In this document: positions 1 to 19,010 of the stretch, piece by piece
Numbering within the stretch: position 1 is the first letter of the stretch
Layout of the letters: the number at the start of each line of letters is the position of its first letter
Source: Promethearchaeota archaeon Loki_b32
Lineage (GTDB): Archaea; Asgardarchaeota; Lokiarchaeia; Sigyniarchaeales; SOKP01
Assembly (NCBI GenBank): GCA_005223125.1
Contig: NJBH01000002.1
Span: 124,001 to 188,000, forward strand
Length of the DNA stretch: 64,000 bases
Reading direction: 5' to 3'
Made by a program: the position numbers and the translations under genes
The notes under the pieces: model-generated
What the model was told of the DNA's origin: nothing
The model's database searches: none
Seen by the model: only the letters and a program-made list of their open reading frames with translations

Positions 1-1830
1 TTCTATAATTTCATCAATATCTTTCTCTTCTTCTCTCAATGCGAGATATTCTAATTTTTTATTTATTGTTTCTAGATTTTGCTGTCTTTCTGAAATTTCA
101 GATTTAAAATCTCCCATTTGCTTCTTCAAATTTTCTATAAGCATAAATAATCGATTTTTTTCTTTCTCAGGTGCGCCTTCTCCTATCATGTAGGGGGTAT
201 TGATAAAATGGAATTTTCTTTGAGAATAAATATTATAGGTGTACCCATCTTGGCAATAAATTCTAGAATAAGGGGCATCTTCTAAAAATAATTCCTTTTC
301 TTCAAAAGTATTCGCGAAATAAAAATTATGCATCATTAAATTCATTAAATCTTCAATTGTTTCTGAAGGAAGTGATTGGGGGCACACTTCTAACAAGTCT
401 GACCAATCTCGTAATCCTTTTTTTCCCTTTAATACATAATTTTTTCGAGGACTTAAAATAATTGCATCTGATTTTAAATCTCTATTGATTTTTTCAGCAA
501 TCCTGCCGTGTTTTTCATCAACAACTATACCTGTTTTATATGAAGCTAAAATATTTTCAATATATTCTTGCCATCTTTCAGTTCCTTGTTTAAAATCCAA
601 AGTCTCATATAATAATTCAGAGTTGATATCTCTTTGTTTTAAGGCATTTTGAACCTTGAAGATATCAGAAGGAATATCAAATTTCTTTTGTTCTAATTCT
701 TTTAATTTTTTATTATACTCGCGATATTCTCTTTGGATAATTACCAAGTTTGCCTTTATTTCATCTAACTTTTGTTCTTTTTGCTCTTTTTCTTCTTGAA
801 TGAATAATTGATCAGATATCTCTGAAAGTTCTATATTAAGATTTTGTAAATATGAGATAACAACTTCGTATTTATCTTTATAATTTCTTATCTCATATTC
901 CATATCATAGACTTCTTGTTGTACTTTATCCTTCTCTTCTTTTTGGGATTGGAATTTTTCTTCTATATTAGTGATTTTAGTTTTATTGTTTTTTATCTCA
1001 TTTCTTAATCTTTCAATATCTTCCTTTAACTTTTCATTCTCTTCATAAATACTTATAAAATCTTTTTGGTTATCATCAAAACTATTAAATGTAAAATGGA
1101 TTTTTGCTTTAAGTTCCTTTATTTGAAGTTCTGCCAAATACCTCTCAAACTCAACCTTTTTTTGATATCTTTTGTAAGTTGCTTCAATATTTTGGAATTT
1201 TATATAAAACTCCCTTAATTTATCATTTGCTTCATCTAATTTCTTGTCAGCCTCATCAAGCTCATTTCTTGTTATTTTAACCTTTTCTTTATAATCTTCG
1301 ATTCCAATAAATTTTGAAACTGCATTATATCGTTCTTTCGGCGATTTTTGAGTCCATATTGCGGTCTGTTGATCATCAATAAAAATAAGAGGGTCTTTCC
1401 ATTCTCCGAAATTTTTTAACTCTTCTTTAGTAATTTTTTTTTCCTCTCCTTTAATTCTTATATAACGTCTATTCCTCTTTTTCTTACCTTTAAAGGCCTC
1501 AAGACCTATAGTTATTTCTTCGTCAATTGGATAGATATTTAGGGCATCTGGGCCTGTATTTAATACAGCTAATTCAATTTTAGCATGATTCTTATAGACT
1601 TTACTTTTAGTACCCCCTTCTTCAATTTCCTCATAAGTAAAAAATTCATTATCTCGTTCAATTTTTCTTCCTAAAACATACTGTACTGCATTAAGGATGT
1701 GTGACTTACCTGAACCGCTACTTCCAGTAACATAGCAACGATCACTGAGATCTCCGAAGGAAATAATCGTATTTTTATGACTTCCAAAATTTTGTAAAAA
1801 TAATTGTTTTAGTATAGGATAACTACCCAT
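1..1830 (-). CDS. SMC-family ATPase, N-terminal 610 residues (runs off left edge)
   Basis: Partial gene reading leftwards out of the window. The first residues show an ABC/SMC head: Walker A GSSGSGKS at residues 36-43, and a Q-loop/R-loop-like stretch around residues 150-175 (IDDQQTAIWTQKSPKER). A long charged coiled coil follows (about 180-390), then a region of about 150 residues (about 390-545) that resembles both halves of an SMC hinge, then the returning coil. The C-terminal head with signature motif and Walker B lies outside. The arms imply a full length near 950-1050 aa, shorter than canonical chromosomal SMC. The start is ATG at 1830 with GAGGAGGA just upstream, and it overlaps the end of the preceding KITE-like gene by 8 bp. 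Third gene of a kleisin-KITE-SMC operon, in the order of Wadjet JetA-B-C. SMC family membership is well supported; the JetC, MksB or Smc5/6-like subtype is inference. Confidence 0.8.
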   Translation of the reverse strand, partial: MGSYPILKQLFLQNFGSHKNTIISFGDLSDRCYVTGSSGSGKSHILNAVQYVLGRKIERDNEFFTYEEIEEGGTKSKVYKNHAKIELAVLNTGPDALNIYPIDEEITIGLEAFKGKKKRNRRYIRIKGEEKKITKEELKNFGEWKDPLIFIDDQQTAIWTQKSPKERYNAVSKFIGIEDYKEKVKITRNELDEADKKLDEANDKLREFYIKFQNIEATYKRYQKKVEFERYLAELQIKELKAKIHFTFNSFDDNQKDFISIYEENEKLKEDIERLRNEIKNNKTKITNIEEKFQSQKEEKDKVQQEVYDMEYEIRNYKDKYEVVISYLQNLNIELSEISDQLFIQEEKEQKEQKLDEIKANLVIIQREYREYNKKLKELEQKKFDIPSDIFKVQNALKQRDINSELLYETLDFKQGTERWQEYIENILASYKTGIVVDEKHGRIAEKINRDLKSDAIILSPRKNYVLKGKKGLRDWSDLLEVCPQSLPSETIEDLMNLMMHNFYFANTFEEKELFLEDAPYSRIYCQDGYTYNIYSQRKFHFINTPYMIGEGAPEKEKNRLFMLIENLKKQMGDFKSEISERQQNLETINKKLEYLALREEEKDIDEIIE

Positions 1831-2494
1831 TATTAGGTTCCTCCTCTTTCTTTTGTTGAATTACATCCATCACACTTAATTGTCTAGTGGTTGGTTTAAG
1901 TATTTTCCTCAATTCTAAATAATCTTTAGGCAAATAGGGTTCTAAATTAATATCAGTATATTCTTCATCTATTTCTCTTAATATACGTTTAAGCATTTCT
2001 GGAGAAATACAGGCTTTTAAGACTGTTGTAGGGTGGTATATTATAATATTCTCTCTTTTAATTTCTATTATCCATCGATTGTGTCTTAACTCTCTTAATA
2101 TTCCTCTCAATTCATTCGCACTTATACTGGTTGATTGTAGTTTTTGTTCTAAGAGATCAAAGGTTGGTCCCTGAGAATATTCAAATTCATGAAGAAGAAT
2201 AATACAAACAAGTGCTATTGCCTTATTTGAAATTGCTCGCCTTTTTGATTCATAAGCATCAGGATTTATGATAATAGGAACAATTTTATCTTCAGTCTCG
2301 ACAATTTGAAGAATTCCTTCGAAATATCGATTTGTCGTTATAATAAATTTTTTAATTTCTTCTGTATTGGGGAAATTTAATAATTTTGAACTTATACCTG
2401 GACCTTTAGATGTTCCTTGAAGAATTATAGAAATCTTTCTCAAAGTTTCTTTATCTAATCCCATTTTATCATAATTATATAAATCTTTCTGCAT
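1823..2494 (-). CDS. KITE-like (JetB/MukE-type) tandem winged-helix protein, predicted
   Basis: 223 aa, no transmembrane segment, no catalytic motif. Residues about 85-165 look like winged-helix units: a helical LVCIILLHEF stretch, then ELRGILRELRHNRWI, then a beta wing with IIEIKRENIIIYH. The preceding YFEGILQIVETED stretch also recalls MukE/JetB-type proteins. The start codon overlaps the stop of the upstream gene (TAATG) and its own stop overlaps the SMC-like start, so translation is probably coupled. Size (JetB and MksE are about 200-250 aa) and position between a kleisin-sized gene and an SMC-type ATPase suggest it binds the kleisin, as ScpB, MukE and Nse1/Nse3 do. The assignment rests mainly on context and predicted fold, not on recognisable sequence identity. 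Confidence 0.5.
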   Translation of the reverse strand: MQKDLYNYDKMGLDKETLRKISIILQGTSKGPGISSKLLNFPNTEEIKKFIITTNRYFEGILQIVETEDKIVPIIINPDAYESKRRAISNKAIALVCIILLHEFEYSQGPTFDLLEQKLQSTSISANELRGILRELRHNRWIIEIKRENIIIYHPTTVLKACISPEMLKRILREIDEEYTDINLEPYLPKDYLELRKILKPTTRQLSVMDVIQQKKEEEPNNG

Positions 2495-3858
2495 TAATGT
2501 CCCTCCATTATTTTTTCATCAATTATATTATATTTTCTAGCAGTAAATTTTTCAATATATCTTTTGGAATCATTAATTATACGAAATTTGTTTTCAAGTT
2601 GGATTTTCTGTTCAAGAGATAGAGTATAAAACATTAATAAGTTTTCTAGAAAAGTACGAGGTTTTTTATTCTTTACGATTTGGTAATCTTCCTCTGGATT
2701 AAATTTAATTGCTTTCTTTAACAGTTCTTCCTTTAACGGAATAAGATCTGATTTTTCCACCACATTTTCAATAAAAGATTTTTCCTCCAAAATAGAGCTT
2801 GGAGCTTCGGGTAATTCTTCAAATTCCGTATCTTCTACTTTTCTTAGAACATTGATTAACGCTCTTTTTACATAATAAGAATTGATTTTCATAGGATATT
2901 GTACTGGAATAGCACAAGTATTACAATTAAAAAATATCTCTTGCCAATTTTTATTGGTAAAATTATTGAGAATAAAATCTTGCATTTTAATAAAGGGAGT
3001 CTCTAATAGCCCACCTCTTGATTTTGCCAATTTAAAGTCGTATTTTGCAGAAGCTATATTTAATAATTGAATGACCGCATCAAATATGCTAGTGCTAATT
3101 TGAACATGATGTTGAATAGTCAGACTTGAATTTCCCAATTCATCCTTATTTTGAAATTCTAAAATTTGATCTATTAATTTATGAATTTCACGGATTTTTT
3201 CATCGATATCGGGATCTTCTAAAATAATATTTCCTTCTCGTTTTAAATTTTCTACAAAATCTTTTAATGCATTAATTAATCCATAAATCCAATTCAATTC
3301 TAACCCGTATTGTTCAAAACTTATAAAAGAACGTATCATTTCAACCATAACAAATAAATCCTCGAAAATTCCATAACGCTTCATTGCGATTGTTTCTAAC
3401 TTGAGTTTTTGGTAAGTATGAACGAGAAATTTTCCCATAGAAGTAAGTTTTAATATCTCCCCAATATTTTGAAGAGGGCTTAAAATGGATCTTCCTGTAA
3501 GTTTGGATAAGAGATCTTCAAATTTTTCCCATGAAATAGATTCAAAATCTTTGCAAAAACCTTCGAATATTGAATATTTAGATTGTTCTCCTTCAAAACT
3601 TCTCTTCATTCCAATATAGAATAAAATTTTCATTGCTGTATTTAAATCCTCTTGATTGGAAAATTTCCCCATATTTTTTCCAAAGGATAATAACATTTTA
3701 TCAGCAGCTTTTGATTCATGAGAATCACATGACATAACTTCATCGATACTTATTTTTGGAATAAGTTTCCTTAAACTATCTTGAGTTTCTTTTGAGAGAA
3801 AAAAACTGTTCTTTTTTGATTCAATTTCATTTTGGGTATTTTCTATATTTTCTTTCAT
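2494..3858 (-). CDS. Kleisin-like (JetA/MukF-type) protein, predicted
   Basis: 454 aa, largely helical and rich in Lys/Glu, no TM segment. The N-terminal third could hold a winged helix (about residues 70-160); the middle is a helical bundle (about 180-300). The C-terminal part contains a short FFNCNTCAIPVQYP segment and ends with a helical, winged-helix-like region. It starts 52 bp after the end of rad50 on the same strand and is first of a three-gene overlapping set (kleisin-size, KITE-size, SMC). JetA and MksF are of similar length and occupy the same position. I do not recognise it by direct sequence motif, so the kleisin role is inferred from the operon. An Nse4-like kleisin of an Smc5/6-like complex is an alternative. 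Confidence 0.45.
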   Translation of the reverse strand: MKENIENTQNEIESKKNSFFLSKETQDSLRKLIPKISIDEVMSCDSHESKAADKMLLSFGKNMGKFSNQEDLNTAMKILFYIGMKRSFEGEQSKYSIFEGFCKDFESISWEKFEDLLSKLTGRSILSPLQNIGEILKLTSMGKFLVHTYQKLKLETIAMKRYGIFEDLFVMVEMIRSFISFEQYGLELNWIYGLINALKDFVENLKREGNIILEDPDIDEKIREIHKLIDQILEFQNKDELGNSSLTIQHHVQISTSIFDAVIQLLNIASAKYDFKLAKSRGGLLETPFIKMQDFILNNFTNKNWQEIFFNCNTCAIPVQYPMKINSYYVKRALINVLRKVEDTEFEELPEAPSSILEEKSFIENVVEKSDLIPLKEELLKKAIKFNPEEDYQIVKNKKPRTFLENLLMFYTLSLEQKIQLENKFRIINDSKRYIEKFTARKYNIIDEKIMEGH

Positions 3859-3910: not shown

Positions 3911-6598
3911 TCAATAGAATTCTTGAACTTTGGACACATTATCAATTATATTTACTTCAAACAATGTATCGGCGATATCTTCTAATTCATTATGATGAGT
4001 AACGACAATTAACTGGGGAATTATATGACTTTCTTTCTTAAAATCTTTCATAGCCTCAACCAATTCTTTTCGCCTTTCTTTGTCTAAATGGGTTGTTGGC
4101 TCATCCATAATAACTGTGGATATTTGACTTGAAAGTAGCCTTGCAATCGCAAGTCGTAATATGATTGCTATAGCAACTTTTTCACCACCACTTACTGAAT
4201 TAATTGAAAGTTTGCCTGTACGCCCAATAATCGTAATATCAAGATCCTCATCAATAGAAATATCTGTAATATTGATATTAAAAGCATCTAAATATTCTTT
4301 TGCGAATTCAGTAATTTTGGGAGCAAATATTTTTCTTATTGCTTTTTGTAATCCGTCTTTAGAAAAGGCAGCTCTAATTTTTAATAAAAATTTGTTAAAA
4401 TTTCGAATTTTGTCAAATTCTTTTAATTTTTCCTTAAATTCTTGAATATTTTGCTCCTTTTCTTTTAATTGAGTTTCTTGGTTTTTTATTTGTTTAATAA
4501 GTAATTTCTTATTACTCTTTTTTGTATTTACGCTATCTTTAATTTCATTATATTCATTCATAGCATTCTCATAGTCTTCTTTCGTATATACTAATTCTTT
4601 TATCTTTTCATTAGTATCTTTTAAATTTTTCTTTAAAATTTCTAATTCTTTATTATTTTTATCCAAATCTTGTTTATATTCTTCTAACTTTTCACTTTTG
4701 ACTATATACCCATCACATTTTTCTTTTATATTTCTAAGATGTTTTAATTCTTTTTCGGGGTCTTTTGGTTTTTCTTTAAAATTCTTAAGAACTGACGTAA
4801 TCGAAGATTCTATTTTATTTAAATCTGATTGTAAAATTTGAAGATGATTTTTTATTTCATTTACATCTCGCTTTTCACTTTTTAAAGCTTCTGCTGCTGC
4901 TTTATATAAAATGAATTTTTTCTTTATTAATTTCATTTGCTTTTTATTATCTTCAACAATTTTTTCCAATTCGGATTTTTCTGATAATTTAATTTGTTCT
5001 TGTTTTACCTTTTCTTCCAAACCACTTATTTTTGACTGTAGATTATTAAGTTTTTTCTCAAGTTCATGATAGCGGTCCAGGTCTAATTTTTTAATTTCTT
5101 CAAGTCTATTCGTTAACTTGGACTCCTCCTCATCTAGTCTTTGTTTTTGTTTGTCATTTTTTTTTAATTGTTCTTTTTTATTGGCACTTTCTTCACTAAA
5201 ATTATTAATTACCTTATTCCGATGATCTTCGGTTAAATCACTTGAACAGACTGGACATTTTGTACTCTCTCCGAGGATCTTTAAATATTCATCAATTTCT
5301 TCAATCCTTCCTTTCATCTTACCTGAAAGATCTATTAAATTTCTAACCTTATTGTTGATATCGTTAACATTTTTTTCTAATTTTTGGATTAATTTCTGTT
5401 TCTCGGAGATATCTACTTTTGGTAAGTATTTTAGAGTATTTTTTTCGATCTTAATTATTTCTTCTTGAAATTCCTTAATATTTTCGTTATAGTTCTTTAT
5501 ATCTGCATTGAATTTTGCTACTTGAATTTCAATTTCATTATATATCTTTAACTCTTTTTGTTCTTCTTCGACTTTCTTTTCAGTTTCTTGGTATTGTATA
5601 TAGAATTCCTTATTTGCCTCTTTTTTATCATGCCATCCCTCTACTCTATCGAGATCATTAGTATTAGTCTTTATATCATTCTCTTTATTTTTTTTTTTAT
5701 TTAATAAATCAATATAGCTCTCATAATGCTCAATATTTTTTATCTGTGGTCGAAGTTTTTTTGCTTCTTCTTTAGCACTTCTGGCTTCATCCACTTGTTT
5801 TGCTAACTTTTCGACCATTTTATTTACCGAAGAGATTTTTTCATTAAGTTCTGTCTGTTCATTGGTCATCTTTTCATTGTCTTCACGCTTTGTTTCCCAT
5901 AACTCTTTTTTCTTTAAGGCTTTTTTTAACGATTCTTCTTCTATTTTTATTTCCTCATCAATCTTTGAGACATTATCTTTGAGTTCTTTAATGCTTAACT
6001 CCAACTTGTCTTTAGCTTCTTGATGATCTTCTAATTTAGCCTGAATTACATCATAATCTTTTAATTTATCTTCAAAGGCATCTATAACAGCTTTCATATT
6101 ATCATAAGCTTTTTTCAACTTATCTATTTCTAATAATTTGGCCATCACTTCTTTTCGTTCTGCAGGTCTTCCATCAATTAAATTCGTAATTTCTCCCTGC
6201 CTAATAAAAATTGAATTGATAATCGCATCTTTATCCATTCCTAAAATTTTAGCAATTTCTTCACTTACCCCAGTCTGTTTTGTTGCTTTTGAGATACCAT
6301 TTTCTCTAATTACTGCATAAGGTCCGCTGTCTGTTTCTCTTCTTCTGACTACTTCATAATCATTTCCATTATGCTCAAAAATTAATTTTACTTCTGCATT
6401 ATTAGTACCTTTTCTGATAAGATCATCAATATTATCCCCTCTAACGTGTTCGCCACAAATTGAATAATAAATCCCATCGATAATTGAGGATTTCCCGGAA
6501 CCATTTTCTCCTCGAAAGACCGAAACCCCTCTTGGAAAATCAAATTTAGTATCTTTATGAGAAATAAAATTCTTTAATTCAATTCTTTTCAATATCAT
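3911..6598 (-). CDS. rad50: DNA double-strand break repair ATPase Rad50
   Basis: 895 aa. Walker A GENGSGKS is at residues 30-37, the Q-loop context FIRQGEITNLIDG near 130, a very long coiled coil from about 165 to 720, and the zinc-hook motif CPVC at residues 448-451, at the midpoint of the chain. The ABC signature SVSGGEKVAIA and Walker B VIMDEPTTHLD lie near 795-830. Rad50 dimerises through the hook and, with Mre11, tethers and processes DNA ends. Its start overlaps the end of mre11 by 20 bp, in the archaeal NurA-HerA-Mre11-Rad50 order, so it belongs to one operon. The kleisin-like gene follows only 52 bp downstream on the same strand, which is uncommon. Confidence 0.96.
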   Translation of the reverse strand: MILKRIELKNFISHKDTKFDFPRGVSVFRGENGSGKSSIIDGIYYSICGEHVRGDNIDDLIRKGTNNAEVKLIFEHNGNDYEVVRRRETDSGPYAVIRENGISKATKQTGVSEEIAKILGMDKDAIINSIFIRQGEITNLIDGRPAERKEVMAKLLEIDKLKKAYDNMKAVIDAFEDKLKDYDVIQAKLEDHQEAKDKLELSIKELKDNVSKIDEEIKIEEESLKKALKKKELWETKREDNEKMTNEQTELNEKISSVNKMVEKLAKQVDEARSAKEEAKKLRPQIKNIEHYESYIDLLNKKKNKENDIKTNTNDLDRVEGWHDKKEANKEFYIQYQETEKKVEEEQKELKIYNEIEIQVAKFNADIKNYNENIKEFQEEIIKIEKNTLKYLPKVDISEKQKLIQKLEKNVNDINNKVRNLIDLSGKMKGRIEEIDEYLKILGESTKCPVCSSDLTEDHRNKVINNFSEESANKKEQLKKNDKQKQRLDEEESKLTNRLEEIKKLDLDRYHELEKKLNNLQSKISGLEEKVKQEQIKLSEKSELEKIVEDNKKQMKLIKKKFILYKAAAEALKSEKRDVNEIKNHLQILQSDLNKIESSITSVLKNFKEKPKDPEKELKHLRNIKEKCDGYIVKSEKLEEYKQDLDKNNKELEILKKNLKDTNEKIKELVYTKEDYENAMNEYNEIKDSVNTKKSNKKLLIKQIKNQETQLKEKEQNIQEFKEKLKEFDKIRNFNKFLLKIRAAFSKDGLQKAIRKIFAPKITEFAKEYLDAFNINITDISIDEDLDITIIGRTGKLSINSVSGGEKVAIAIILRLAIARLLSSQISTVIMDEPTTHLDKERRKELVEAMKDFKKESHIIPQLIVVTHHNELEDIADTLFEVNIIDNVSKVQEFY

Positions 6599-7700
6599 CT
6601 TCGATAAATTCCTCCTTAAAATATTTATTCGCTAAATTTATAGCTGAATCTTTATTTCCATTCGAAAGATCATCATAAAGACCTTTTGCAAATTGTCCCA
6701 TATTTTCATTCTCAAAATGCTCCACAAAAATTGCTTGAAGATCATAGTTATCTTTTGAAATTTTAATCTCTTTTGACTTTTTTTCACTAAACCTTATTTT
6801 ATGATATATGACTTTATCCTTCAATAATTTCTCAACGTTCTGCTGAATAAGTGCTCTATCTAAATCCTTTCCGTATATTTTAAGATTAACTACTGGTTTA
6901 TTTTCTTTTTCCAGATATTTTGGCAGGTCATTGACCTCTGATGCTTCTAATTCAAGTCTTAATTGTGGTCGGATATCTAATGGTATGAATTCATATTCAA
7001 TATTCCCATCTTCAATATCTACTATATAAAAACCTTTCCCTTTCTTCTGCCAAGTTGTAACCTCATCTTGCTTTTTAATCTCTGTTGCCCCGCTATATAC
7101 TAAGTAGCCCTCTCCGAATTTTAAGACATTAGTTGCATGAATATGTCCTAATGCATAATAACTTGCTTTTTTTGGTAAATCATCTAAAGTTAATTGATAT
7201 ACTCCCTTAAAAGGTAAATATTTTTTAATTGCTTGGTGAAGAATTAAGACAGAATTTTTAGAATTTTCGGCTATCTTATCAAATTTTTTCAATTCTTTCT
7301 TTAAATGCTCTTTATTCATAGTCCTTAGATTTGATATTCCTGCAAATAGTACATCCTTAATTTTTATTGATTCTAAAGTAAAGCTTTTCCCTAGTATCTG
7401 AATGTTAAATAATTCATGTGGTATTTTAGCTTTTCTTTTAGGTATATCATGTTCTCCTAAGACAGTCAAAAACTTAATTTTACCATTTAATTTATCTATC
7501 CCTTCTTTAAAACTGAGAAGTGCTTTTATAGGAGGATGATAATTATCAAATAGATCACCCGCATGAATTATAACATCCACTCGTTCTTCTAAGCATTTAT
7601 CTATAACTTGATGAAATGCATCATAAAAATCCTGTTCTCGTATATCCAGATTATATTGCTTATATCCTAAGTGGGTGTCTGATACGTGAGCTATTCTCAT
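6579..7700 (-). CDS. mre11: DNA double-strand break repair nuclease Mre11
   Basis: 373 aa calcineurin-like metallophosphoesterase. The metal-binding motifs are in order: D8-x-H10 in HVSDTHLG, HAGDLFDNYHP near residue 48, LGEHD near 82 (usually GNHD, here with Glu in place of Asn), LHQAI, and GHIHATN near 185. It supplies the nuclease of the Mre11-Rad50 complex, nicking and resecting DNA ends, with HerA-NurA acting after it in archaea. It lies 6 bp after herA and overlaps rad50, so the four genes are probably co-transcribed. The Asn-to-Glu change in the third motif is the one oddity; the other ligands are present. Confidence 0.95.
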   Translation of the reverse strand: MRIAHVSDTHLGYKQYNLDIREQDFYDAFHQVIDKCLEERVDVIIHAGDLFDNYHPPIKALLSFKEGIDKLNGKIKFLTVLGEHDIPKRKAKIPHELFNIQILGKSFTLESIKIKDVLFAGISNLRTMNKEHLKKELKKFDKIAENSKNSVLILHQAIKKYLPFKGVYQLTLDDLPKKASYYALGHIHATNVLKFGEGYLVYSGATEIKKQDEVTTWQKKGKGFYIVDIEDGNIEYEFIPLDIRPQLRLELEASEVNDLPKYLEKENKPVVNLKIYGKDLDRALIQQNVEKLLKDKVIYHKIRFSEKKSKEIKISKDNYDLQAIFVEHFENENMGQFAKGLYDDLSNGNKDSAINLANKYFKEEFIEDDIEKN

Positions 7701-7706
7701 ACTTTT

Positions 7707-9353
7707 TCACTCCAGCATACCTCTTGTATCTTCTAAATCTTGTCGTAGATCTTCTTCTCTTCGCTGTTCTTCATTATCAACATATTCACGGGCTTCGTTT
7801 AACATACCTAATAGATCTAAATCTGCTCCCCCTTCTTGAGTATTTCGTCTTCTTACTTTAACCATAACGGGGGCTCTTGTCAAATTACCAACAACTACAG
7901 CTTCTCCAATGTTTAATCCCGGTAAATCACTTAACAGATCTTCACTTAATTTTTCAGAACTTCTCTTAATTGCGGTTTGATCTTCTGCATTGGTTATTTT
8001 TAAAATCATTTGGCTATTGCATTGACTTAATGCATCCTGGTCCACTTTATAAGGTCTCTGAGTTATTAATGCCTGAAAGACTCCAAATTTCCTACCCTCA
8101 GCTGCAATTTCTTTTACTATATCTATTGAATATCCACCGCCTCTTCTCCCAGGTTTATTAGGTAAAAAACGATGAGCTTCTTCAATAAATACAAAGACGG
8201 GAAAATGATATTCATCACTTCTTCTTTGATCATATATTTCATTAAGTATTCGTGAAGCTATATAGTCTGCTACATAATCTGGGATTCCAGATAAATCAAT
8301 TACAGAAACATGCTTTGGACGTATAATATCACAGACAGGGGTTGTTGTATCGGCAAAAATTTGTAATCTGTGCATTCTTCTTACATATCTCAATGCATTG
8401 CGGGAATCATTTGTATCTGCATTAGTTAATTCATTAATTAGATCATCTAAATTATAACCCGTAGCAGAATCTAGATTCGCTAAAGCACTTTCTATTGCTG
8501 TTCTAATTCGAGTAAATCTTTCAGGAATACCACAGATATTAAATATTTCAAATGCATCTAAATCAGCAAAACGAATTGAATATTGTTCGATTTCCCTTCC
8601 AACATCAGCATCAGTATATATTCCTGTACTATTAGGTGTCTGAAATACTCCCATTCGATTAATTGTTTCAATTTCATCTTGCCTTCCTTCGTCATTTTGT
8701 TCGCCTTCTTCTAAATTTTCTTCACTTTCTTCTTCTAATTGATTTCCCAATAATACATAATCCGCATGCGGATCAATGATAACAATTGTAGCTCCTTTTT
8801 TGTATAATTCTTCAACAAGAACTCCTCCCAAGTAACTTTTTCCACCTCCAGTCTGAGCCAATATTGAGATATGTCTTTGAAAACCTTTTATAGATATATA
8901 AACAGGTACATCTGAACGTGTAATTAAATGTCCAATATATAATCCTTCTTCTTCGGGATATGAATAAAATTCAGCTAAAAGGTCATTTGAAGCTAAATAA
9001 ACAGGATTACCCGGTTTTATTGCCCTTCTTGGCTGAAAGATATTTCCATTATGTAAATATCCTAGAACTCGTGCTTTAGCAAAGCATCGAGCATCAGCTA
9101 ATCCCGCACTTATAATTTTTTCAGCATCTTCCATTTTCAGATCGGCGACAAGTGCACGAGAATCCGCAAATACTTCAAATATTTGAGCAATAATACTTAC
9201 GTCAGTTTCTCGCATTATTCCTGCAATATTTATTAGTTCTTTCGAATGTATAGCGACATATTCTAATCTATTAATATCTTTATTAGTCGAAAAATAAAAT
9301 TCGGAAGTATTAACTTCTCCAACTATTATTCCTATTTTAGGGATACCTGACAC
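7707..9353 (-). CDS. herA: HerA hexameric DNA translocase
   Basis: 548 aa with an N-terminal HAS-barrel-like beta domain, Walker A around residues 164-172 (AQTGGGKSYL), Walker B FVFIEEAHRFLP near 390 and the ITQRP arginine-finger region near 435. HerA is a bidirectional FtsK/HerA-superfamily motor that pairs with the NurA nuclease to resect DNA ends after Mre11-Rad50. It overlaps nurA by 17 bp and precedes mre11 by 6 bp. An acidic Glu/Asp-rich insert follows the first ATPase strand at about residues 200-225 (EEESEENLEEGEQNDEG), a lineage-specific insertion by its look. Not to be confused with the HerA-like dsRBD fusion at 23964. Confidence 0.95.
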   Translation of the reverse strand: MSGIPKIGIIVGEVNTSEFYFSTNKDINRLEYVAIHSKELINIAGIMRETDVSIIAQIFEVFADSRALVADLKMEDAEKIISAGLADARCFAKARVLGYLHNGNIFQPRRAIKPGNPVYLASNDLLAEFYSYPEEEGLYIGHLITRSDVPVYISIKGFQRHISILAQTGGGKSYLGGVLVEELYKKGATIVIIDPHADYVLLGNQLEEESEENLEEGEQNDEGRQDEIETINRMGVFQTPNSTGIYTDADVGREIEQYSIRFADLDAFEIFNICGIPERFTRIRTAIESALANLDSATGYNLDDLINELTNADTNDSRNALRYVRRMHRLQIFADTTTPVCDIIRPKHVSVIDLSGIPDYVADYIASRILNEIYDQRRSDEYHFPVFVFIEEAHRFLPNKPGRRGGGYSIDIVKEIAAEGRKFGVFQALITQRPYKVDQDALSQCNSQMILKITNAEDQTAIKRSSEKLSEDLLSDLPGLNIGEAVVVGNLTRAPVMVKVRRRNTQEGGADLDLLGMLNEAREYVDNEEQRREEDLRQDLEDTRGMLE

Positions 9354-10599
9354 GTCTATAACCTCTTGGTGTTGCTTTTTTTCCTATAATTTCTTCAAAT
9401 TTTTTTAAATATAATTCTTTAAAATCTACTCGTGATAATTTTACTTCATTATCCACGGCTGTAAGCCATATATTATAATTTTCCAACCCGCAATATCCCG
9501 CTGAAATTAATTTTAATACTTCATTTAAATCAATGTCTATCAATTTTGGCCATCCAATATCTAATAGTCTTTTATTAATACCAAAATACCATGCAGGTAT
9601 ATCTATTCGCATTGGAGTATCAATTCGAGTTGGTAAAATATGAAATGATATGATTGCTGGAAAGTCCAGCATCTCAAAAATAATTTTTTGAGCGTGCTTA
9701 ATAAAATCTGGATCTTCAGATAACGTTGGGAAATTAGATTCAATAAATTGTCTAAAATTTGTTCTTATTAATTTTTCCGCTCGTCGCCATCTGGTGCTAG
9801 CACCTAATAATAATGGTTTAGTATATCCAGAATCCTTTGCGTTACTAAGAATTAATAAAGAATCGGGTTTCCTTGCGATTAATTCTTCGGTCAACAAGAT
9901 AATATCTTTATCTCTTATTGATTTTGCTAATTTGAATGCATTTTTTGGTCTATCCAACGCTTCTGAAAGAAGTCTTTTTCTCAATTTTTTATCTGAAATT
10001 TTCTCTTTTAAGATCTCCTTTATTAAGAATTCTCTATAAAAAGAGGTTCTACTCTCTTTACTAATCCCTATAAGTAAAATTCCCTTTTCTTTACATAATT
10101 TTAATAATTTTAAATAAATTTCAAAATAATCTAGGATAAATCCCTTATTATTTTCCAGTTTAAGTTCCAATGGTAAGTGAACCATTCTACCATAAAGAGA
10201 ACCATCAATTAATAATATACCTTCAAATTGTTTTTCAATAGCTTGAATTCCTGCTAAATGTTCCGTCCATTCCATTACTCTTCCAATAAAAGTTGATTGA
10301 GTCATAATATTAGAGAAGTCAAAATCCGTAAAAATGGTTCTATACTTATTTTTCTTACCTAATGCTAAAGCACGACAGACAAAAAAGAAGCCTCCATTTG
10401 ATGTTGGACATCTCCCTCGACTACTATCTATTGCTATGACATCTTGTTCAGGGATACAGGAGTCTAATTGATAATTTATCCAATGAGCTTTAAATTTATT
10501 TTCATAAAATTTATTAATTTTTTTGTCCTCAAAATTTTCTAAAATCCTCTTAGATTTAGTATTTAAATCTACGATGAATTCTGTTAGAAATTCTGGCAT
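9337..10599 (-). CDS. nurA: NurA 5'-3' nuclease
   Basis: 420 aa RNase H-like NurA-domain nuclease. The metal-binding aspartate motifs are visible: D58 in VIAIDSSRGR and a second in LLIDGSLYGRM near residue 131. The GISKESRTS strand-loop typical of the family lies near 180, and a C-terminal Asp/Asn motif follows. NurA works with HerA to digest DNA ends and expose 3' single strands. It is the first gene of the repair operon; the 192 bp upstream, up to the Argonaute gene, are AT-rich and probably hold the promoter. Confidence 0.92.
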   Translation of the reverse strand: MPEFLTEFIVDLNTKSKRILENFEDKKINKFYENKFKAHWINYQLDSCIPEQDVIAIDSSRGRCPTSNGGFFFVCRALALGKKNKYRTIFTDFDFSNIMTQSTFIGRVMEWTEHLAGIQAIEKQFEGILLIDGSLYGRMVHLPLELKLENNKGFILDYFEIYLKLLKLCKEKGILLIGISKESRTSFYREFLIKEILKEKISDKKLRKRLLSEALDRPKNAFKLAKSIRDKDIILLTEELIARKPDSLLILSNAKDSGYTKPLLLGASTRWRRAEKLIRTNFRQFIESNFPTLSEDPDFIKHAQKIIFEMLDFPAIISFHILPTRIDTPMRIDIPAWYFGINKRLLDIGWPKLIDIDLNEVLKLISAGYCGLENYNIWLTAVDNEVKLSRVDFKELYLKKFEEIIGKKATPRGYRRVRYP

Positions 10600-10791: not shown

Positions 10792-12270
10792 TTACATATA
10801 ATTGCTATATGCTGTAGGAGGTGTAATATCTCTACCTTTCAATTCTCCCATTATTTTTCCTACTTTTTTTGATACTGAGAGTGTAACGGGCATTCTTTTA
10901 CAAAAATCTGTGCTATTCCAGTCTAATTTTGTTAAATTGATTATATCTCTTGCTAATATTTCAGTATCACTATCACTTTTTTCTACAATTACTTCAATAG
11001 GTTTTGGTATCATACTACCTGGATATGTATCAAGACAAGGAATGTAACCAGTTGTATAAAGATTAAAGACTTTTTTATTATTGGAATTTCTTTCAAATAC
11101 AGAACCACGAGCTATAGGATAATCTGTTGAGGTAATTGCATTAAAATGACAATATTCTTTAATATGAATAAAATCTTGGATTTCAATATTTTTTGTTGAT
11201 TTTAAAAATCCTTCATTTTCTTCCTCAGTATATTCCGATTTTTTATGTACAACAATTCTATTAGGCTTACTATTATGGTGTTGTCTTTTATATAAGTTAA
11301 TAGCTTGGGACAAAATATCTTTTGCTTGTTCTTCTGTAAGATTGGTTCTTCTAATATCTTCTTCATGTTCAACTTTTAATTCTAAACCTCTAGCCACTTG
11401 AGAGTCACCAGTCCTCATATAGACCTGAGCTATAGCAGCTTTAATAACTACACTATCTCTTTTATTAATATCATAGTAAAATGAAATTCCAACATGAACA
11501 GTTTCAGGATTTAAATCAGCTAATTTCCAGGGAATACCTGAAAATTTATAATATTGGGCAACAACATAGTTCCAAGCAATTGAAGCAGGATCTTCCAAAT
11601 TCCCTCCTTTGAATTCCAATGTTTGAGGAAGCATTAATTGTGTTCGCAAATTCAACTCATATCCTAGAACTTTTATATAATTATGGAAATCATAAAATAT
11701 TGGACGTTCACTTTGATCCATTGAAGCTATTCTCTGTAAATCTCGAAAATTCCGATCGCTTAGTCGGATTTTCTTATCTTTTGTAAATGGATCTGAACAA
11801 GCTTCTAGAATTTTTTTAGGAATAGTAATAATAATAACAGGTCTTGGAAGATTTTGCCCACTCAAATCTTTCAGAATCTGCTTTATATGTTCTGAAAATT
11901 CAACAATTCTTTCATTTCGGTTAGCAATATTAAGAATTTTTTCAATATTTTGTGAAGAAATTTCTTGACAATAATTATCATCTTTCTCCATATAAAATCC
12001 TAACGGACCATCTTGATATAATCCTGGAAAATCAAGATTTCTTATATTTGAATTAGGATATGTCACACCTTCTATTGAATATTGTAATAAAGAAAGAAAA
12101 TCAATTGCCGCATTAATTGATTTTTTCGATCCAATTATTCCTATAGGAATTCTTAAATTATTATGTTCCAATCCATTTGGTTTATAATTTAATAATCCTA
12201 CTCTTGGATCAGCACATGTAGTTTTATCTCTGAAAATTAAATCCGGTTCTGGCACTAAAAACGATCTCAT
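10792..12270 (-). CDS. Short prokaryotic Argonaute (MID-PIWI), catalytically inactive
   Basis: 492 aa, the length of a short pAgo lacking N and PAZ domains. The N-terminus (CADPRVGLLNYKP; PGLYQDGPLGFY) matches the usual opening of short pAgos. The MID region includes LRTQLMLPQTLEF near residues 215-230. In PIWI the first catalytic Asp strand reads VHVGISFYYD (Ser at the Asp position) and the VVHKKSEYTEEE strand lacks the second Asp, so it should bind guide and target without cutting. A strong SD (GAGGAG) precedes ATG 12270. It lies 15 bp after a nuclease-APAZ gene. The pair matches SPARDA, in which guide-directed target recognition activates the associated nuclease. Family call firm; subtype inferred from the partner. 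Confidence 0.88.
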   Translation of the reverse strand: MRSFLVPEPDLIFRDKTTCADPRVGLLNYKPNGLEHNNLRIPIGIIGSKKSINAAIDFLSLLQYSIEGVTYPNSNIRNLDFPGLYQDGPLGFYMEKDDNYCQEISSQNIEKILNIANRNERIVEFSEHIKQILKDLSGQNLPRPVIIITIPKKILEACSDPFTKDKKIRLSDRNFRDLQRIASMDQSERPIFYDFHNYIKVLGYELNLRTQLMLPQTLEFKGGNLEDPASIAWNYVVAQYYKFSGIPWKLADLNPETVHVGISFYYDINKRDSVVIKAAIAQVYMRTGDSQVARGLELKVEHEEDIRRTNLTEEQAKDILSQAINLYKRQHHNSKPNRIVVHKKSEYTEEENEGFLKSTKNIEIQDFIHIKEYCHFNAITSTDYPIARGSVFERNSNNKKVFNLYTTGYIPCLDTYPGSMIPKPIEVIVEKSDSDTEILARDIINLTKLDWNSTDFCKRMPVTLSVSKKVGKIMGELKGRDITPPTAYSNYM

Positions 12271-12285
12271 TTTTTATCTCCTCTT

Positions 12286-13707
12286 TTAATTAAAAAATTT
12301 ATCTATTCTTGTATCATTAACTCCGATTGTTTTAGAGCTCCAATTGACTGTATGCTCCATCAAGGGCTTTATTATAAATTCATTAAACCAGGGATCTTTA
12401 TCTCGGCTAAAATAATCACTAGTTAAGAAATCGCTCCAAAATTCTAACCTAAGTCTCCAACTTGGATTTCTATTCCATTTTGGATTCAAATACTTTTTAT
12501 GTAGATTACTTGAATGGTCTCCTGTTATCGTATTTACACCATTTCTAGTAAAAATAAATCTAGGCCAAATAAATAAACCCATTTTACCATCATATTCATC
12601 TAATCGAATGAAAACAGATTTATGCTCAACATAATACAGTGTTCCATCTGGGCTATAAATTGGTTTAGTTACTGTTTTAATTTTTCTATTGGGTAGATTA
12701 ATTTTAATTGGTTCTACACTGCCCTTTGGTTTATCATCAATAGGTTCGTCATAAGCAAAGAAAAAATCACTCTCCCATCTTCTTAAACCTTTACACCACA
12801 AATATCTTCGTAATGATGTATAAAGTAATTCCCTTTTCCTCTGAATATCAAGCCTATCTGTATCATGGTCATATACTGGTCCTGAAATATGGGGTCTAAG
12901 AACATTCAGATTCTTCTCAAATGACCTTACAACTGGTTCAGGTGCTTCAAATCGTGGAACAACAAATTCAGGTAACCTTTGCTTTTCTTCAGATCTAACT
13001 CTGTCAATTATAGTCTTTTTAAGTTTGAATTTGGATTTAACTTGCCAAAATTTTTGCGGATATTGTAATTCCATAAAATTTAATATAAGATTGTCCTTTT
13101 CTCTCGTTGGATCTCTTCGATTCTTAATTTCTCTTAACAATCTTTTATGCTGTGAATTTAGATTTTTTCTAAAAATATCTTCTCTATCTCTTACTCGTTC
13201 GACTAAACCAAGTAGGGAACAAACCTTTACATCAGTATTTCTAAAAAACTCTAAAATTTCTGATTCATTAGCGGAATTTAACTTTTCTACTTTTTTCTCA
13301 TCAAAATTTAATCCTTCCTTATTATTAAACCAATTTAAAATTTCTTCCTTTTCTGCTTCCCTTGTTAATACTTTTTTAGTCTGATTTTTTTTATTAAATT
13401 TATTCGCAAAAATTACAAATCTAAATCTTCTTTCAGGTCTTAAAATTAACCAATAATAGAAATAGTCAAATATTTCGTGTCTAAGATTTTCAGATTTAGC
13501 AAAAATCGAGACTTGAGTATTTTTAGCTTCTATCCATAAATTTTCTTTCTTATTATCCATGATAATATCAGATAAAGTCCCCTCATTTAAGGAATTCTTA
13601 GTTAAATGATAACCTTGAGTTTGATAATACCTTATAATGTATTTTTTATATAATTCTGAATTATAATTACGAGCTTCTCTCTCTGATTCAAAATCTTCCC
13701 ATGACAT
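12286..13707 (-). CDS. PD-(D/E)XK nuclease fused to APAZ domain (DREN-APAZ-like)
   Basis: 473 aa. The N-terminus has a restriction-endonuclease-like core: D47 in GTLSDIIMD, then E60-x-K62 in LWIEAKNTQ. This fits a PD-(D/E)XK active site, with no Sir2 or TIR motif. A charged linker (about 150-260) leads to a C-terminal region (about 270-473) rich in Trp/Arg, with KRELLYTSLRRYLW and PSWRLRLEFWSDFL segments, where APAZ domains sit in short pAgo partners. In SPARDA systems this protein forms a heterodimer with the short pAgo and degrades DNA and RNA non-specifically after target recognition. First gene of the pair, divergent from the AAA-type gene at 13906. Nuclease motif is seen; APAZ is inferred from position, length and partner. 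Confidence 0.8.
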   Translation of the reverse strand: MSWEDFESEREARNYNSELYKKYIIRYYQTQGYHLTKNSLNEGTLSDIIMDNKKENLWIEAKNTQVSIFAKSENLRHEIFDYFYYWLILRPERRFRFVIFANKFNKKNQTKKVLTREAEKEEILNWFNNKEGLNFDEKKVEKLNSANESEILEFFRNTDVKVCSLLGLVERVRDREDIFRKNLNSQHKRLLREIKNRRDPTREKDNLILNFMELQYPQKFWQVKSKFKLKKTIIDRVRSEEKQRLPEFVVPRFEAPEPVVRSFEKNLNVLRPHISGPVYDHDTDRLDIQRKRELLYTSLRRYLWCKGLRRWESDFFFAYDEPIDDKPKGSVEPIKINLPNRKIKTVTKPIYSPDGTLYYVEHKSVFIRLDEYDGKMGLFIWPRFIFTRNGVNTITGDHSSNLHKKYLNPKWNRNPSWRLRLEFWSDFLTSDYFSRDKDPWFNEFIIKPLMEHTVNWSSKTIGVNDTRIDKFFN

Positions 13708-13905: not shown

Positions 13906-15033
13906 ATGCCTGAAAAAAATTCGAATTTTCCAAAGATTAGAAATTTAGTTTTGGATGCTGTAAAGGAAGGTATTAATGAGAAAAAGATTTTTTATGATAT
14001 TTCTCCTAATTGGCATCAATATTTTCATTATGAAAGTAATCCTTTAGACTCATTTACTCCACATGAACCTTTTGAAGACCATCTAAATGAATTATTTGTT
14101 AATAGAGAAGCGGAAATTCATTTAATTTCAAATTATTTTGGAAGTATAAAAACTATTCCATATAACATGCATATCGCAATAATAGGTTCTAAAGGAATAG
14201 GTAAGCATACGACCCTAAAAATAATATGTAAAATCATTCAAGAATCGTTTCCAGAAATATCTTTTGAATATTATAACTTAAAAACAGGTAAAGATTTTAA
14301 AAATAATTCAGATTTAGAAGATTTTGAGTTAAATAATTTAGATAAACAAGAGCTAGATATTCGCCTCATCTCTTGTTCTGGTAAAAATAAGTGGTTGGTT
14401 TTAAAGAGAATTAATAACTATAAGAAGAAAAGTAAAATTTTTTTCACTATCTGGCATACTAGGGATTTTCCTATGAATGAAGGTTTAAAAATAAACAAAA
14501 TCATTTATTTTCGAAATTACAATAAAGAAGTTGTTACTAAAATTTTCGAGCGTAGAATTAAAAAGTTCCTAAATGAGAAAAAAGGAAATAAAAGTTACAT
14601 TAATAGTCTTTACAAGAATCTTCTTCCTTCTATTATCAGTGCATTTCAAGGTAATTTAAAACTTAGTTTTCATTTCTTTAAACAAATTCATCAATTAGCA
14701 AAAATGCAGAATTTAGATGAAATTCCACAATCCTTAATAGAGGAGTTAATGAATAATTATCTATTAATAAAAAGCCAAAAGATTACAAATAAAGAAAAAG
14801 AGATAATTAATTATCTTTTAAATGCTCAAAATGTTAAATTCATCACTACCAGCGATTTAAGAGATGATCTTCAATTTGATCGAACAGTAGCATGGAGATA
14901 CTTAGAGAATTTAACTAAAAAAAACATATTAACACGAGTAAAATACGGAAATCCCTCAAGATATAAAATCAATGACATTTTTCTGAGTTTTTATGAAGAT
15001 GAATTAAAAAATAGAATAATATTTAAAGAATGA
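13906..15033 (+). CDS. AAA/STAND-like P-loop protein with degenerate Walker motifs and C-terminal winged helix
   Basis: 375 aa. A P-loop-like GSKGIGKHTT sits near residue 94, with His where Ser/Thr normally follows the Lys. A Walker B of the DExx type is not evident (the strand reads KWLVLKRINN, then KIFFTIW). The layout NREAEIHLISNYF before the P-loop recalls Orc1/Cdc6-like and archaeal STAND ATPases. The last 80 residues form a winged helix (KEKEIINYLLNA, TTSDLRDDLQFDRTVAWRYLENL). It may therefore be a DNA-binding regulator with lost or altered ATPase activity. It is divergent from the Argonaute pair and 13 bp upstream of an unknown 266-aa gene; the two look like a unit. Confidence 0.6.
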   Translation: MPEKNSNFPKIRNLVLDAVKEGINEKKIFYDISPNWHQYFHYESNPLDSFTPHEPFEDHLNELFVNREAEIHLISNYFGSIKTIPYNMHIAIIGSKGIGKHTTLKIICKIIQESFPEISFEYYNLKTGKDFKNNSDLEDFELNNLDKQELDIRLISCSGKNKWLVLKRINNYKKKSKIFFTIWHTRDFPMNEGLKINKIIYFRNYNKEVVTKIFERRIKKFLNEKKGNKSYINSLYKNLLPSIISAFQGNLKLSFHFFKQIHQLAKMQNLDEIPQSLIEELMNNYLLIKSQKITNKEKEIINYLLNAQNVKFITTSDLRDDLQFDRTVAWRYLENLTKKNILTRVKYGNPSRYKINDIFLSFYEDELKNRIIFKE

Positions 15034-15046
15034 TAAGTGAAACAAC

Positions 15047-15847
15047 ATGCCATTATTGAGAATCTTTCATGATGTATATACCAAATCTGAAATAAGTCGA
15101 ATAGAAGAAAATATTAAAATTAAAAACGAAAATTTTGCTGAATTTGATGAAGAGAAGAAAATATTAAAACCTGGTTTTCGTAAAAGTAAACAAATCTTCA
15201 AACCTACTTCAAAAGGATATTATCTCACGGAATATTTTGAGATTGATAAAAGGTCAATGCCCTCCTATTATACTGAGATGTATTACTTTAAAAACCTGAC
15301 TGAAAAAATCGAATCAGAAGAAAAATTTTATCCCATCCTTATAAAAATCTTATTCAACAGGAAAAAAAAAGTATTATGTTTATATAGTAAACAAATTTTA
15401 AGAAATGATCTTGTTAATAATTTAGTAATCAAATTAAGGAATAAACACGGTTTAGATTTTAAGACACAACCCCAGAATTATATTTTTAAAGAAGATGAAT
15501 TAGATGACCTTGTTGATGCATTAGATATAAAAGACTACACTGCAATTTCTGTCTGGGATAAAGATAATAGGGCGATCTTAGAGAATCCTCAGAAGATTAC
15601 TGAGACTGAAAAGTTTATATCGTTCTTAAATGATACATATAAGGGTAAGTGGCATTACTTAAAAGTACCTTTTGATGAGCTGAATATCGAACTTAAAATT
15701 AATAATAAGACTCAGAAATACATCACTTTTATCAACGATTTTGTTGATGATATGCATTTAACTAATGCAGTAGATTTTTTAGTTTCGAAGATTTTTGAAG
15801 TTGAGGATTTCAGTGGTTCAAAACAAGTATTTATAAATTCATTTTAA
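15047..15847 (+). CDS. Hypothetical protein paired with the AAA-type gene
   Basis: 266 aa soluble protein of unknown function. No signal peptide, TM segment or motif that I can name. It alternates charged helices and beta strands; a NRKKKVLCLYSKQ strand follows about residue 100 and an acidic EDELDDLVDALDIKDY stretch lies near 150. It follows the degenerate ATPase by 13 bp and probably shares its transcript, within a cluster of conflict genes. It may be the effector or adaptor of a two-gene system, but nothing in the sequence proves this. Confidence 0.5.
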   Translation: MPLLRIFHDVYTKSEISRIEENIKIKNENFAEFDEEKKILKPGFRKSKQIFKPTSKGYYLTEYFEIDKRSMPSYYTEMYYFKNLTEKIESEEKFYPILIKILFNRKKKVLCLYSKQILRNDLVNNLVIKLRNKHGLDFKTQPQNYIFKEDELDDLVDALDIKDYTAISVWDKDNRAILENPQKITETEKFISFLNDTYKGKWHYLKVPFDELNIELKINNKTQKYITFINDFVDDMHLTNAVDFLVSKIFEVEDFSGSKQVFINSF

Positions 15848-17317: not shown

Positions 17318-18295
17318 ATGCTAGAAGAAGTAAATTCACATCGAAATATAATTGATTACATATTTCTATTACGGATTATGAAGTTCTCAAAATCAGGGCT
17401 TATTAAATTATTTCAAATTCCTACAATGGAGATATCTCGATTAAAATCCTTAAATAAAGAATTTTTAACTAAGATTCTGCTTACTAAAAAGAAATCAAAC
17501 CTAGAATATTTCAACAAAATTTCAAAACTATATGATTTTAATCCTAACGAAGAGGAATACTCTGAATTGGAGAAATTAGTTAAATATTGCATCCAGAAAA
17601 ATATTACAATTGCAACACCTTTCGATAAAAACATTCCTAAATTGCTTCAAATTTTGCAGCCCGGAAAGCGTGATTTAGTATTTATCAAAGGTCAGATTAT
17701 AGATAAAGATTTAAAATCTTACTCTATATGTGGATCTCGAACGCCAACAAAAGAAGCAATTACTAAGACTCGGCAAATCGCGGAATTGCTAGCTAAATAT
17801 AAATTCACGCTTATAAATGGTTTTGCAAAAGGTATAGATATTGAGGCTTTTATCGGAGCTAATGCGCAAAATGGGAGATATATAGGTGTTTTAGCATCCG
17901 GAGTTGAAAATGTTTATCCTAATGAGAATAAACAATATGTACAGTCAGTTATTAAAAATGGTGCCTTAATATCGCAAAATCTTTTATGGAATCGTATTAA
18001 TAAGTTCGCACTACAAATGAGAAACCGATTTTCTGCACAATTATCATTAGGTAGCATCTTCATTGAAGGTAATTATAGATCAGGAACGATATGGCAATAT
18101 AAATTTGCGAAAGAAATTATGCGCCCTGTATTTTATCTGGAGCCAGAGAATTGGAATCACGATAACACACATATTTTAAAGATTGTTAGGGATGGGGGCG
18201 GAATTGAAATAAAAAATGATCTTAGTAATATCAAAAATATAATTGAGATTTTAGAAAAGGAGTATTCTAAGAGAATGGAGAGCTTTAATGACTAA
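17318..18295 (+). CDS. DprA/Smf-like Rossmann-fold protein (ShosA-like)
   Basis: 325 aa. The core (about residues 130-290) has the DprA motif series: SICGSRTPTKEA, then LINGFAKGIDIEA, then GVLASGVENVYPNENKQ, then ALISQN, RNRFSAQLSLGSIFIEG and RSGTIWQYKFAKEI. A helical N-terminal extension of about 120 residues precedes it. DprA in transformable bacteria loads RecA on ssDNA. In this genome the gene overlaps a phosphoribosyltransferase gene by 8 bp, the arrangement of the ShosTA toxin-antitoxin/anti-phage system, in which the DprA-like ShosA counteracts the PRTase ShosT. DprA fold is certain; the ShosA-like role is inferred from the pairing. Confidence 0.85.
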   Translation: MLEEVNSHRNIIDYIFLLRIMKFSKSGLIKLFQIPTMEISRLKSLNKEFLTKILLTKKKSNLEYFNKISKLYDFNPNEEEYSELEKLVKYCIQKNITIATPFDKNIPKLLQILQPGKRDLVFIKGQIIDKDLKSYSICGSRTPTKEAITKTRQIAELLAKYKFTLINGFAKGIDIEAFIGANAQNGRYIGVLASGVENVYPNENKQYVQSVIKNGALISQNLLWNRINKFALQMRNRFSAQLSLGSIFIEGNYRSGTIWQYKFAKEIMRPVFYLEPENWNHDNTHILKIVRDGGGIEIKNDLSNIKNIIEILEKEYSKRMESFND

Positions 18296-19010
18296 GAAAA
18301 TAAAGTTTGATTTTGGAATATTTAAATGCAGCGAAATTACATTGAATTCAATTCCGCTTATTAAAGGGAGATTCTCGCTAAATATCAATCCCAATTTTTC
18401 AAAAGAATTTAAGAGACCTTTCTGGTTTTATGATTTAACAAAAAGATTAAAAATTGATGAGGTTATTTCTTTGGGTGCATATTATCCCCAGAGGAATTTT
18501 AATAGTGATTTAGAAGGCACTCCTAATCTAAGATATCCTGCATTTTCAGATATTTTGTTCAATTCTAAGTCAGGACCATTGCATAGAGCTCGGAGCGATT
18601 ATATAATAGAGTCCAGAAAGCAGCAATTAAGAATAATTTCAAATTTTTATGCTAATTATTTGAAAAATGTAATTGGATCATTAAATTATAATGAAATAAT
18701 TCCTGTACCTGCTAAATTAGAGTATTCCTATAATTCAGTTGAAATAATTAGTATGGAATTTAGCAATCTTTTTAATATTCCAATGAATATAAGTAGGATA
18801 GCACGAATAGATGATTATACAAAGGAATACTCGATAATATGTGAAAATGATAATTTAAATCAGAGAAGAATATTATTAATAGATGATATTATTACTGATG
18901 GAGAAACTAAAGAGAAAATATTTTTCAGATTGAATGAAAAGGGTTGCAATAATATAGATATGATAACTCTCGCAAGAACGGATCACAATATCTATGAGTA
19001 TAATGAATAA
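18288..19010 (+). CDS. ComFC-like phosphoribosyltransferase (ShosT-like)
   Basis: 240 aa type I PRTase-fold protein. The PRPP-binding loop ILLIDDIITDGET lies at about residues 199-211, and the upstream IIPVPAKLEYSYNSVEIIS strand-loop matches ComFC/GntX-type enzymes. The cysteine zinc-finger of classical ComFC is absent. An N-terminal segment of about 90 residues is unassigned. The start (ATG 18288) overlaps the stop of the DprA-like gene by 8 bp, so the two are translationally coupled. By analogy with ShosT it could act on nucleotides or PRPP as a toxic effector. Confidence 0.82.
   Translation: MTKKIKFDFGIFKCSEITLNSIPLIKGRFSLNINPNFSKEFKRPFWFYDLTKRLKIDEVISLGAYYPQRNFNSDLEGTPNLRYPAFSDILFNSKSGPLHRARSDYIIESRKQQLRIISNFYANYLKNVIGSLNYNEIIPVPAKLEYSYNSVEIISMEFSNLFNIPMNISRIARIDDYTKEYSIICENDNLNQRRILLIDDIITDGETKEKIFFRLNEKGCNNIDMITLARTDHNIYEYNE

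Follow-up and report, generated by a model that had tools for sequence, protein, structure and literature searches.

Among the systems described so far, those closest to the locus reported here are the SPARDA systems of Novosphingopyxis (NbaSPARDA) and Xanthobacter (XauSPARDA), in which a short prokaryotic Argonaute (pAgo) is encoded together with a DREN-APAZ protein, and SPARHA (PDB 9om4), in which the partner is an HNH-APAZ protein. The characterized nuclease-APAZ systems cleave non-specifically upon target recognition (PMC12205087, PMC10810196). In archaea, APAZ group III was described by Ryazansky et al. with APAZ as the sole domain (PMC6299218), and this group may correspond to the family modelled in PADLOC as Aga_REase_Archaea. 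Two Argonautes are also described from the lokiarchaeon Ca. Harpocratesius repetitus, namely HrAgo1, which is eAgo-like in its domains and silences RNA, and HrAgo2, a MID-PIWI protein that is catalytically dead and has been placed in the context of transposition and replication genes, not of an immune effector (PMC11217426).

Here, a stretch of 64,000 nucleotides (the window) from an Asgard genome of 4.13 Mb in 71 contigs was analysed, and it was found to encode a short pAgo and a nuclease-APAZ protein as neighbours, at the positions given in the first-pass annotation. The nuclease-APAZ gene comes first and the Argonaute gene second on one strand, with a GGAG motif preceding the Argonaute start. 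The closest named relative of this Argonaute (85% identity) is from a Ca. Lokiarchaeota MAG (JAUWHL010000267) congeneric with the source genome, indicating that the host is a lokiarchaeon, in line with the apparent Asgard archaeon of the first-pass annotation. The Argonaute is thus Lokiarchaeal like HrAgo1 and HrAgo2, and catalytically dead like the latter.

Table 1 Features of the short Argonaute pair and the surrounding island (positions in the window).
Feature	Position	Strand	Evidence
Wadjet-like SMC module (454 aa, 223 aa, 963-aa SMC)	1..3858	-	SMC_N 46 bits, above cut-off
Accessory Rad50-like ATPase with zinc hook	3911..6598	-	Pfam AAA_23, Rad50_zn_hook; 45% identity to G118
Accessory Mre11-like phosphoesterase	6579..7700	-	Pfam Metallophos; 61% identity to G118
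Accessory HerA ATPase	7707..9353	-	Pfam DUF87 125 bits; 63% identity to G118
Accessory NurA nuclease	9337..10599	-	Pfam NurA 44 bits; 70% identity to G118 copy
Short pAgo (MID-PIWI), 492 aa, catalytically dead	10792..12270	-	PADLOC, PDB matches, TM-score, alignment
Intergenic gap, 15 nt, with GGAG ribosome-binding site	12271..12285	-	Sequence read
Nuclease-APAZ effector, 473 aa	12286..13707	-	PADLOC, fold search, dN/dS
APAZ domain, about residues 198-434	12406..13116	-	Profile match to 9jsb_D, 9om4_A, 9qbp_A, 9qbq_A
PD-(D/E)XK nuclease domain, N-terminal, residues 1-165	13213..13707	-	Triad D47/E60/K62, hhalign, secondary structure
AAA-HTH protein, 375 aa, divergent	13906..15033	+	54% identity to G118/G115; island edge common to both
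266-aa protein accompanying the AAA-HTH gene	15047..15847	+	48% identity to G118/G115

The Argonaute matches the PADLOC pAgo_I models at 384 bits over almost the entire protein, and a PDB sequence search ranks short Argonautes from SPARDA, SPARHA and SPARTA complexes highest (E 1.7e-45 to 9e-35), the solved SPARDA Argonautes reaching E 1e-43 to 1e-45. In a two-chain model of the two genes read through (pTM 0.53), the Argonaute half was good, with a TM-score of about 0.85 to SPARDA Ago chains, and the APAZ half was poor, with much of the APAZ region at pLDDT <50. In an alignment with Asgard long Argonautes that retain D..D..H (motifs FDVSR, KDG and LPLH), the first Asp is replaced by S263, the second Asp by K344 and the His by S465, indicating that the PIWI domain is catalytically dead and that slicing has been lost. 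The dead PIWI proposed from a Ser at the first Asp position and a missing second Asp is therefore confirmed, and extended to the His. The HK-type MID motif H196-x3-K200-x9-TQ (H196/K200/T210/Q211) is kept in all four aligned sequences; in NbaAgo, the MID His is replaced by Arg, as read off the PDB-search alignment.

The partner gave no match in a single-sequence PDB search, and a Pfam search returned nothing convincing and no DUF4365/DREN match. PDB matches came with a profile of its family alone, built from seven sequences. This profile matched the APAZ parts of DREN-APAZ, HNH-APAZ and DUF4365-APAZ chains, including 9qbp, 9qbl and 9qbq, with E values from 6e-12 to 4e-8 (9om4 HNH-APAZ, 6.2e-12; 9jsb DREN-APAZ, 2.7e-11), and the PADLOC APAZ-containing models matched residues 199-434. 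The AlphaFold2 model of the partner has a mean pLDDT of 74.5, and SPARDA nuclease-APAZ chains fill the first 11 places in its Foldseek search (E 2.8e-12 and up); the high rmsd of these full-length alignments is probably due to different placement of the domains. Thus, the C-terminal APAZ domain, which the first-pass annotation had placed there, is supported by PADLOC, profile and fold alike.

In the predicted nuclease core, a helix (residues 16-29) is followed by strands 34-38, 48-51 and 56-66, a helix (74-88) and a strand (95-104), which is the secondary-structure order of the PD-(D/E)XK core. In the AlphaFold2 model, D47 lies just ahead of the second strand, and E60 and K62 lie within the third. 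The triad is invariant in all six homologues with the same nuclease and is arranged like residues D41, Q60 and K62 of the NbaSPARDA nuclease (PMC12205087), with Lys third in both, supporting the restriction-endonuclease-like site (D47, E60-x-K62) noticed in the initial reading. The DREN identity implied by that reading did not hold at the level of sequence. The nuclease profile gave an hhalign probability of 0.6% against bacterial DREN, in a comparison of shallow profiles and with a fold that is similar, and of 0.1% against SMEK; neither identity is supported. The partner instead matches the PADLOC model Aga_REase_Archaea (PDLC02417) at 86.5 bits over residues 30-226, and its nuclease domain aligns with that of haloarchaeal partners with a probability of 99.6%. 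By sequence, the nuclease belongs to this archaeal family and is not recognizable as DREN, SMEK or HNH.

In a tree of 29 sequences, the window Argonaute groups with Lokiarchaeal, Heimdallarchaeal, Hodarchaeal and Thermoplasmatota proteins (support 100/99), and the next-wider clade adds haloarchaea and one Lokiarchaeal HNH-type protein (99/98). The Argonautes of bacterial DREN-type SPARDA group apart from these, in a clade of their own (100/99). The window Argonaute thus nests among archaea, and a recent transfer from bacteria is unsupported. Together with the nuclease profiles, the tree indicates that the pair resembles SPARDA in layout and fold, has an archaeal ancestry and is not DREN proper. 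It shares with SPARDA the two-gene order, the dead MID-PIWI, the APAZ domain, the N-terminal PD-(D/E)XK nuclease and the best structure matches, but differs in a nuclease that is not DUF4365 by profile, in the separate clade of its Argonaute and in the MID His. With SPARHA it shares homologous APAZ and pAgo, although the effector is an HNH fold there and a PD-(D/E)XK fold here. The pair is therefore a member of the archaeal branch of nuclease-type short Argonautes, which is already catalogued in outline, and is distinguished within it by its Lokiarchaeal lineage. Both genes are kept together in Lokiarchaeota, Heimdallarchaeota, Hodarchaeota, Thermoplasmatota and several haloarchaeal plasmids, so the layout is not rare in archaea and the earlier remark that it is known mainly from bacteria needs correction. 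In a scan of viral contigs, a single distant relative came up, and its partner is SIR2-like. Natural single-chain nuclease-APAZ-pAgo fusions occur in other Asgard archaea, supporting the partnership of APAZ and pAgo.

Several related arrangements were observed in the same survey. Schlafen/AlbA_2-APAZ-pAgo single-chain fusions of about 980 aa are present in one Asgard family (L014:5597-8542, L015:2281-5298, L016:1-2751 and L017:6180-9089), with an SLFN_AlbA_2 match of 44.8 bits in the L014 fusion and a PIN-domain gene adjoining the L016 fusion. The Lokiarchaeon G145 carries a SPARHA-like HNH-APAZ and short pAgo (L023:6592-9455, the same as L013:7293-10156) next to what appears to be a type III-like restriction-modification pair. 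Upstream of haloarchaeal REase-APAZ/pAgo pairs lies a conserved, divergently oriented unit of two genes (L088:762-2419, L090:795-2447 and L099:783-2425), and one of its proteins resembles a PIN domain by eye. In G116, a congener of the source genome, broken or truncated Argonaute genes (L110:11263-11712, L079:7195-8022 and L119:9093-10368) are signs of decay at Argonaute sites.

A second Lokiarchaeal genome, G128 (locus L011), carries a homologous pair that is 84-85% identical but has different flanking genes. At the DNA level, the 84% identity breaks off 31 nt ahead of the first start codon and 7 nt past the second stop codon, in a comparison where only 0.6 kb of contig remains downstream; these limits mark the boundaries of a cassette of two genes that probably moves as a unit. 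Against this pair, dN/dS (NG86) is 0.10-0.11 for both genes, with a range of 0.06-0.11 for the nuclease-APAZ gene, which, with the 84%-identical second copy, indicates that the pair is not a chance reading. The truncated pAgo relics of G116 would fit the idea that the pair is likewise inactive cargo or a decaying relic in a defence hotspot; however, its frames are intact, its triad is conserved and both genes are under purifying selection, making this very improbable.

We consider it likely that the pair is a self-contained archaeal SPARDA-type defence system. By analogy with its relatives, RNA-guided DNA sensing that unleashes a collateral nuclease would be its most likely mechanism. The short pAgo and the nuclease-APAZ protein would form a heterodimer, in which the APAZ protein may supply the N-L1-L2 half of the Argonaute channel that is absent from the short pAgo, and the HK-type MID domain would bind a small guide, most probably an RNA, by its 5' end. 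Base-pairing with invader DNA would open the complex and drive its assembly with other complexes, and assembly is predicted to activate the D47/E60/K62 nuclease. The active nuclease would cut DNA without sequence specificity, and the infected cell would be stopped or killed. To our knowledge, no archaeal member of this family has a measured guide preference, activity or defence function. Alternatively, the nuclease could make up for the lost PIWI activity by cutting the guide-bound target itself (or RNA), instead of acting as a collateral killer. This is the classical proposal for inactive pAgos (PMC2743648, PMC6299218), and the unlikeness of the nuclease to DREN is consistent with it. Nevertheless, this alternative is improbable, as the fold matches those of the characterized nuclease-APAZ systems, which cleave non-specifically after target recognition (PMC12205087, PMC10810196).

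The self-contained system preferred here would travel as a two-gene cassette and, in the window, fill the Argonaute slot of an accessory island. As the first-pass annotation had pointed out, the pair immediately precedes a NurA-HerA-Mre11-Rad50 block that is read from the same strand; the block begins 192 nt downstream of the pair. The block resembles the archaeal NurA-HerA-Mre11-Rad50 repair operon in gene content and order, but it is an accessory, patchy second copy headed by an Argonaute. The source genome has two NurA genes, and a close homologue (70%) of the pair-side one is found in one of 18 congeners (G118), the other congeners having a distant NurA alone; the reading of the block as a housekeeping repair operon was therefore rejected. 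A Wadjet-like JetABCD module lies directly downstream of Rad50. Beyond the SMC gene and outside the window, the next gene encodes a JetD-like protein (JetD_C 24.5 bits, cut-off 22; module L154:1474-7858). In G085 (L075), NurA-HerA-Mre11-Rad50 and the first three Wadjet-like genes occur in the same order as in the window.

On the other side of the pair, the possibility that the AAA-HTH and 266-aa genes regularly belong to archaeal SPARDA was rejected, as the haloarchaeal divergent genes are unrelated and G128 lacks them; 7 Asgard genomes have this two-gene module, which frequently lies opposite an Argonaute or HerA-Mre11-Rad50 operon. A ShosTA-like pair lies at 17318-19010, with a DprA-like protein matching ShosA at 143 bits and a weak phosphoribosyltransferase match, and other defence-type genes are located on that side. 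Open reading frames that agree with this ShosTA-like pair in length and in the first 40 residues occur in G116 (L079:10661-12353), close to a short pAgo that is truncated. The window also encodes (23964-25586) a HerA/FtsK-like ATPase that carries a double-stranded RNA-binding domain (dsrm, E 6e-16) at its C terminus, an unusual combination.

In G118, which has the AAA-HTH and 266-aa genes and the whole NurA-HerA-Mre11-Rad50 block (identities in Table 1), the slot between the AAA-HTH gene and NurA is occupied by a 757-aa long Argonaute (Piwi above the cut-off), apparently catalytic, and a 1388-aa protein. The AAA-HTH/266-aa pair of G115 likewise lies opposite a long Argonaute of this kind, followed by NurA-like, HerA and fused Mre11-Rad50 genes. 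The order is long Argonaute, NERD-helicase, NurA, HerA, Mre11 and Rad50 in G119; AAA-HTH-like gene, pAgo, NurA, HerA, Mre11 and Rad50 in G075, from another family; and pAgo, 370-aa protein, HerA, Mre11 and Rad50 in G159. In G189, 2.2 kb separate a pAgo from a NurA-HerA-Mre11-Rad50 block, which is on the opposite strand. The pAgo is of the long type in G075, G159 and G189 too. Neighbourhoods of long pAgo and NurA-HerA-Mre11-Rad50 type recur across Asgard families (L039:8943-19810, L077:3076-13959, L081:9369-19913, L136:373-10543, L153:555-9579 and L130:9603-20000).

These arrangements would fit a reading in which the pair is the sensing and killing head of a NurA-HerA-Mre11-Rad50(-Wadjet) island, whose machine would open or resect invader DNA ends and feed single-stranded DNA, and perhaps guides, to the Argonaute, with the long, apparently catalytic pAgo as its equivalent in relatives. 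A census recovered about 56 pAgo genes, after merging of fragments, in 50 of 228 Asgard genomes, and HerA, Mre11 and Rad50 lie within 10 kb of 7 of them. Asgard genomes carry 5.6 HerA-domain genes on average, so that about 3% of a genome is within 10 kb of one, and counting every HerA gene gives an expectation of 1.7 such loci (P = 0.0017). The expectation is far lower when Mre11/Rad50-linked HerA alone is counted (P = 2.5e-6 at an assumed rate of about 1%). Given the shared ancestry of G115 and G118 and the general clustering of defence genes, this proximity shows association and not cooperation. Moreover, NurA is preceded by the 192-nt gap, in which a TATA-like box of its own was read by eye, and the G128 pair has no adjacent NurA or AAA-HTH gene, both of which argue against the necessity of coupling. 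A pAgo was recognized beside the window-type NurA in 2 of 18 genomes and beside the other NurA type in 2-3 of 32, leaving 16 and 29-30 genomes, respectively, with accessory NurA-HerA blocks and no recognized pAgo alongside. Functional coupling of the pair to the repair-type block is therefore possible, but the reading as its sensing head is unlikely. About as unlikely is a composite Asgard defence in which an exchangeable Argonaute module, either long and apparently slicing or a SPARDA-like pair, would work with accessory NurA-HerA-Mre11-Rad50, here beside a Wadjet-like SMC module; the Argonaute would then read the strand laid bare when this machinery opens the ends of invader DNA.

In the open-access papers searched, we found no description of an Argonaute swap at one site and no paper joining 'prokaryotic Argonaute' with Rad50 and Mre11, and the swapped Argonaute slot beside DNA-end-processing genes seems to be new. 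The pair by itself is a further member of a catalogued archaeal class; what sets it apart is its distinct nuclease family and, mainly, the swapped slot. The pair extends the known short-Argonaute class to Lokiarchaeia and adds a nuclease family distinct from DREN, and the locus raises the question of why unrelated Argonaute types alternate at the head of one DNA-end-processing island. If the two cooperate, Argonaute immunity would be linked to the NurA-HerA-Mre11-Rad50 machinery in the archaea nearest to eukaryotes, which would bear on the source of DNA targets or guides for prokaryotic Argonautes.
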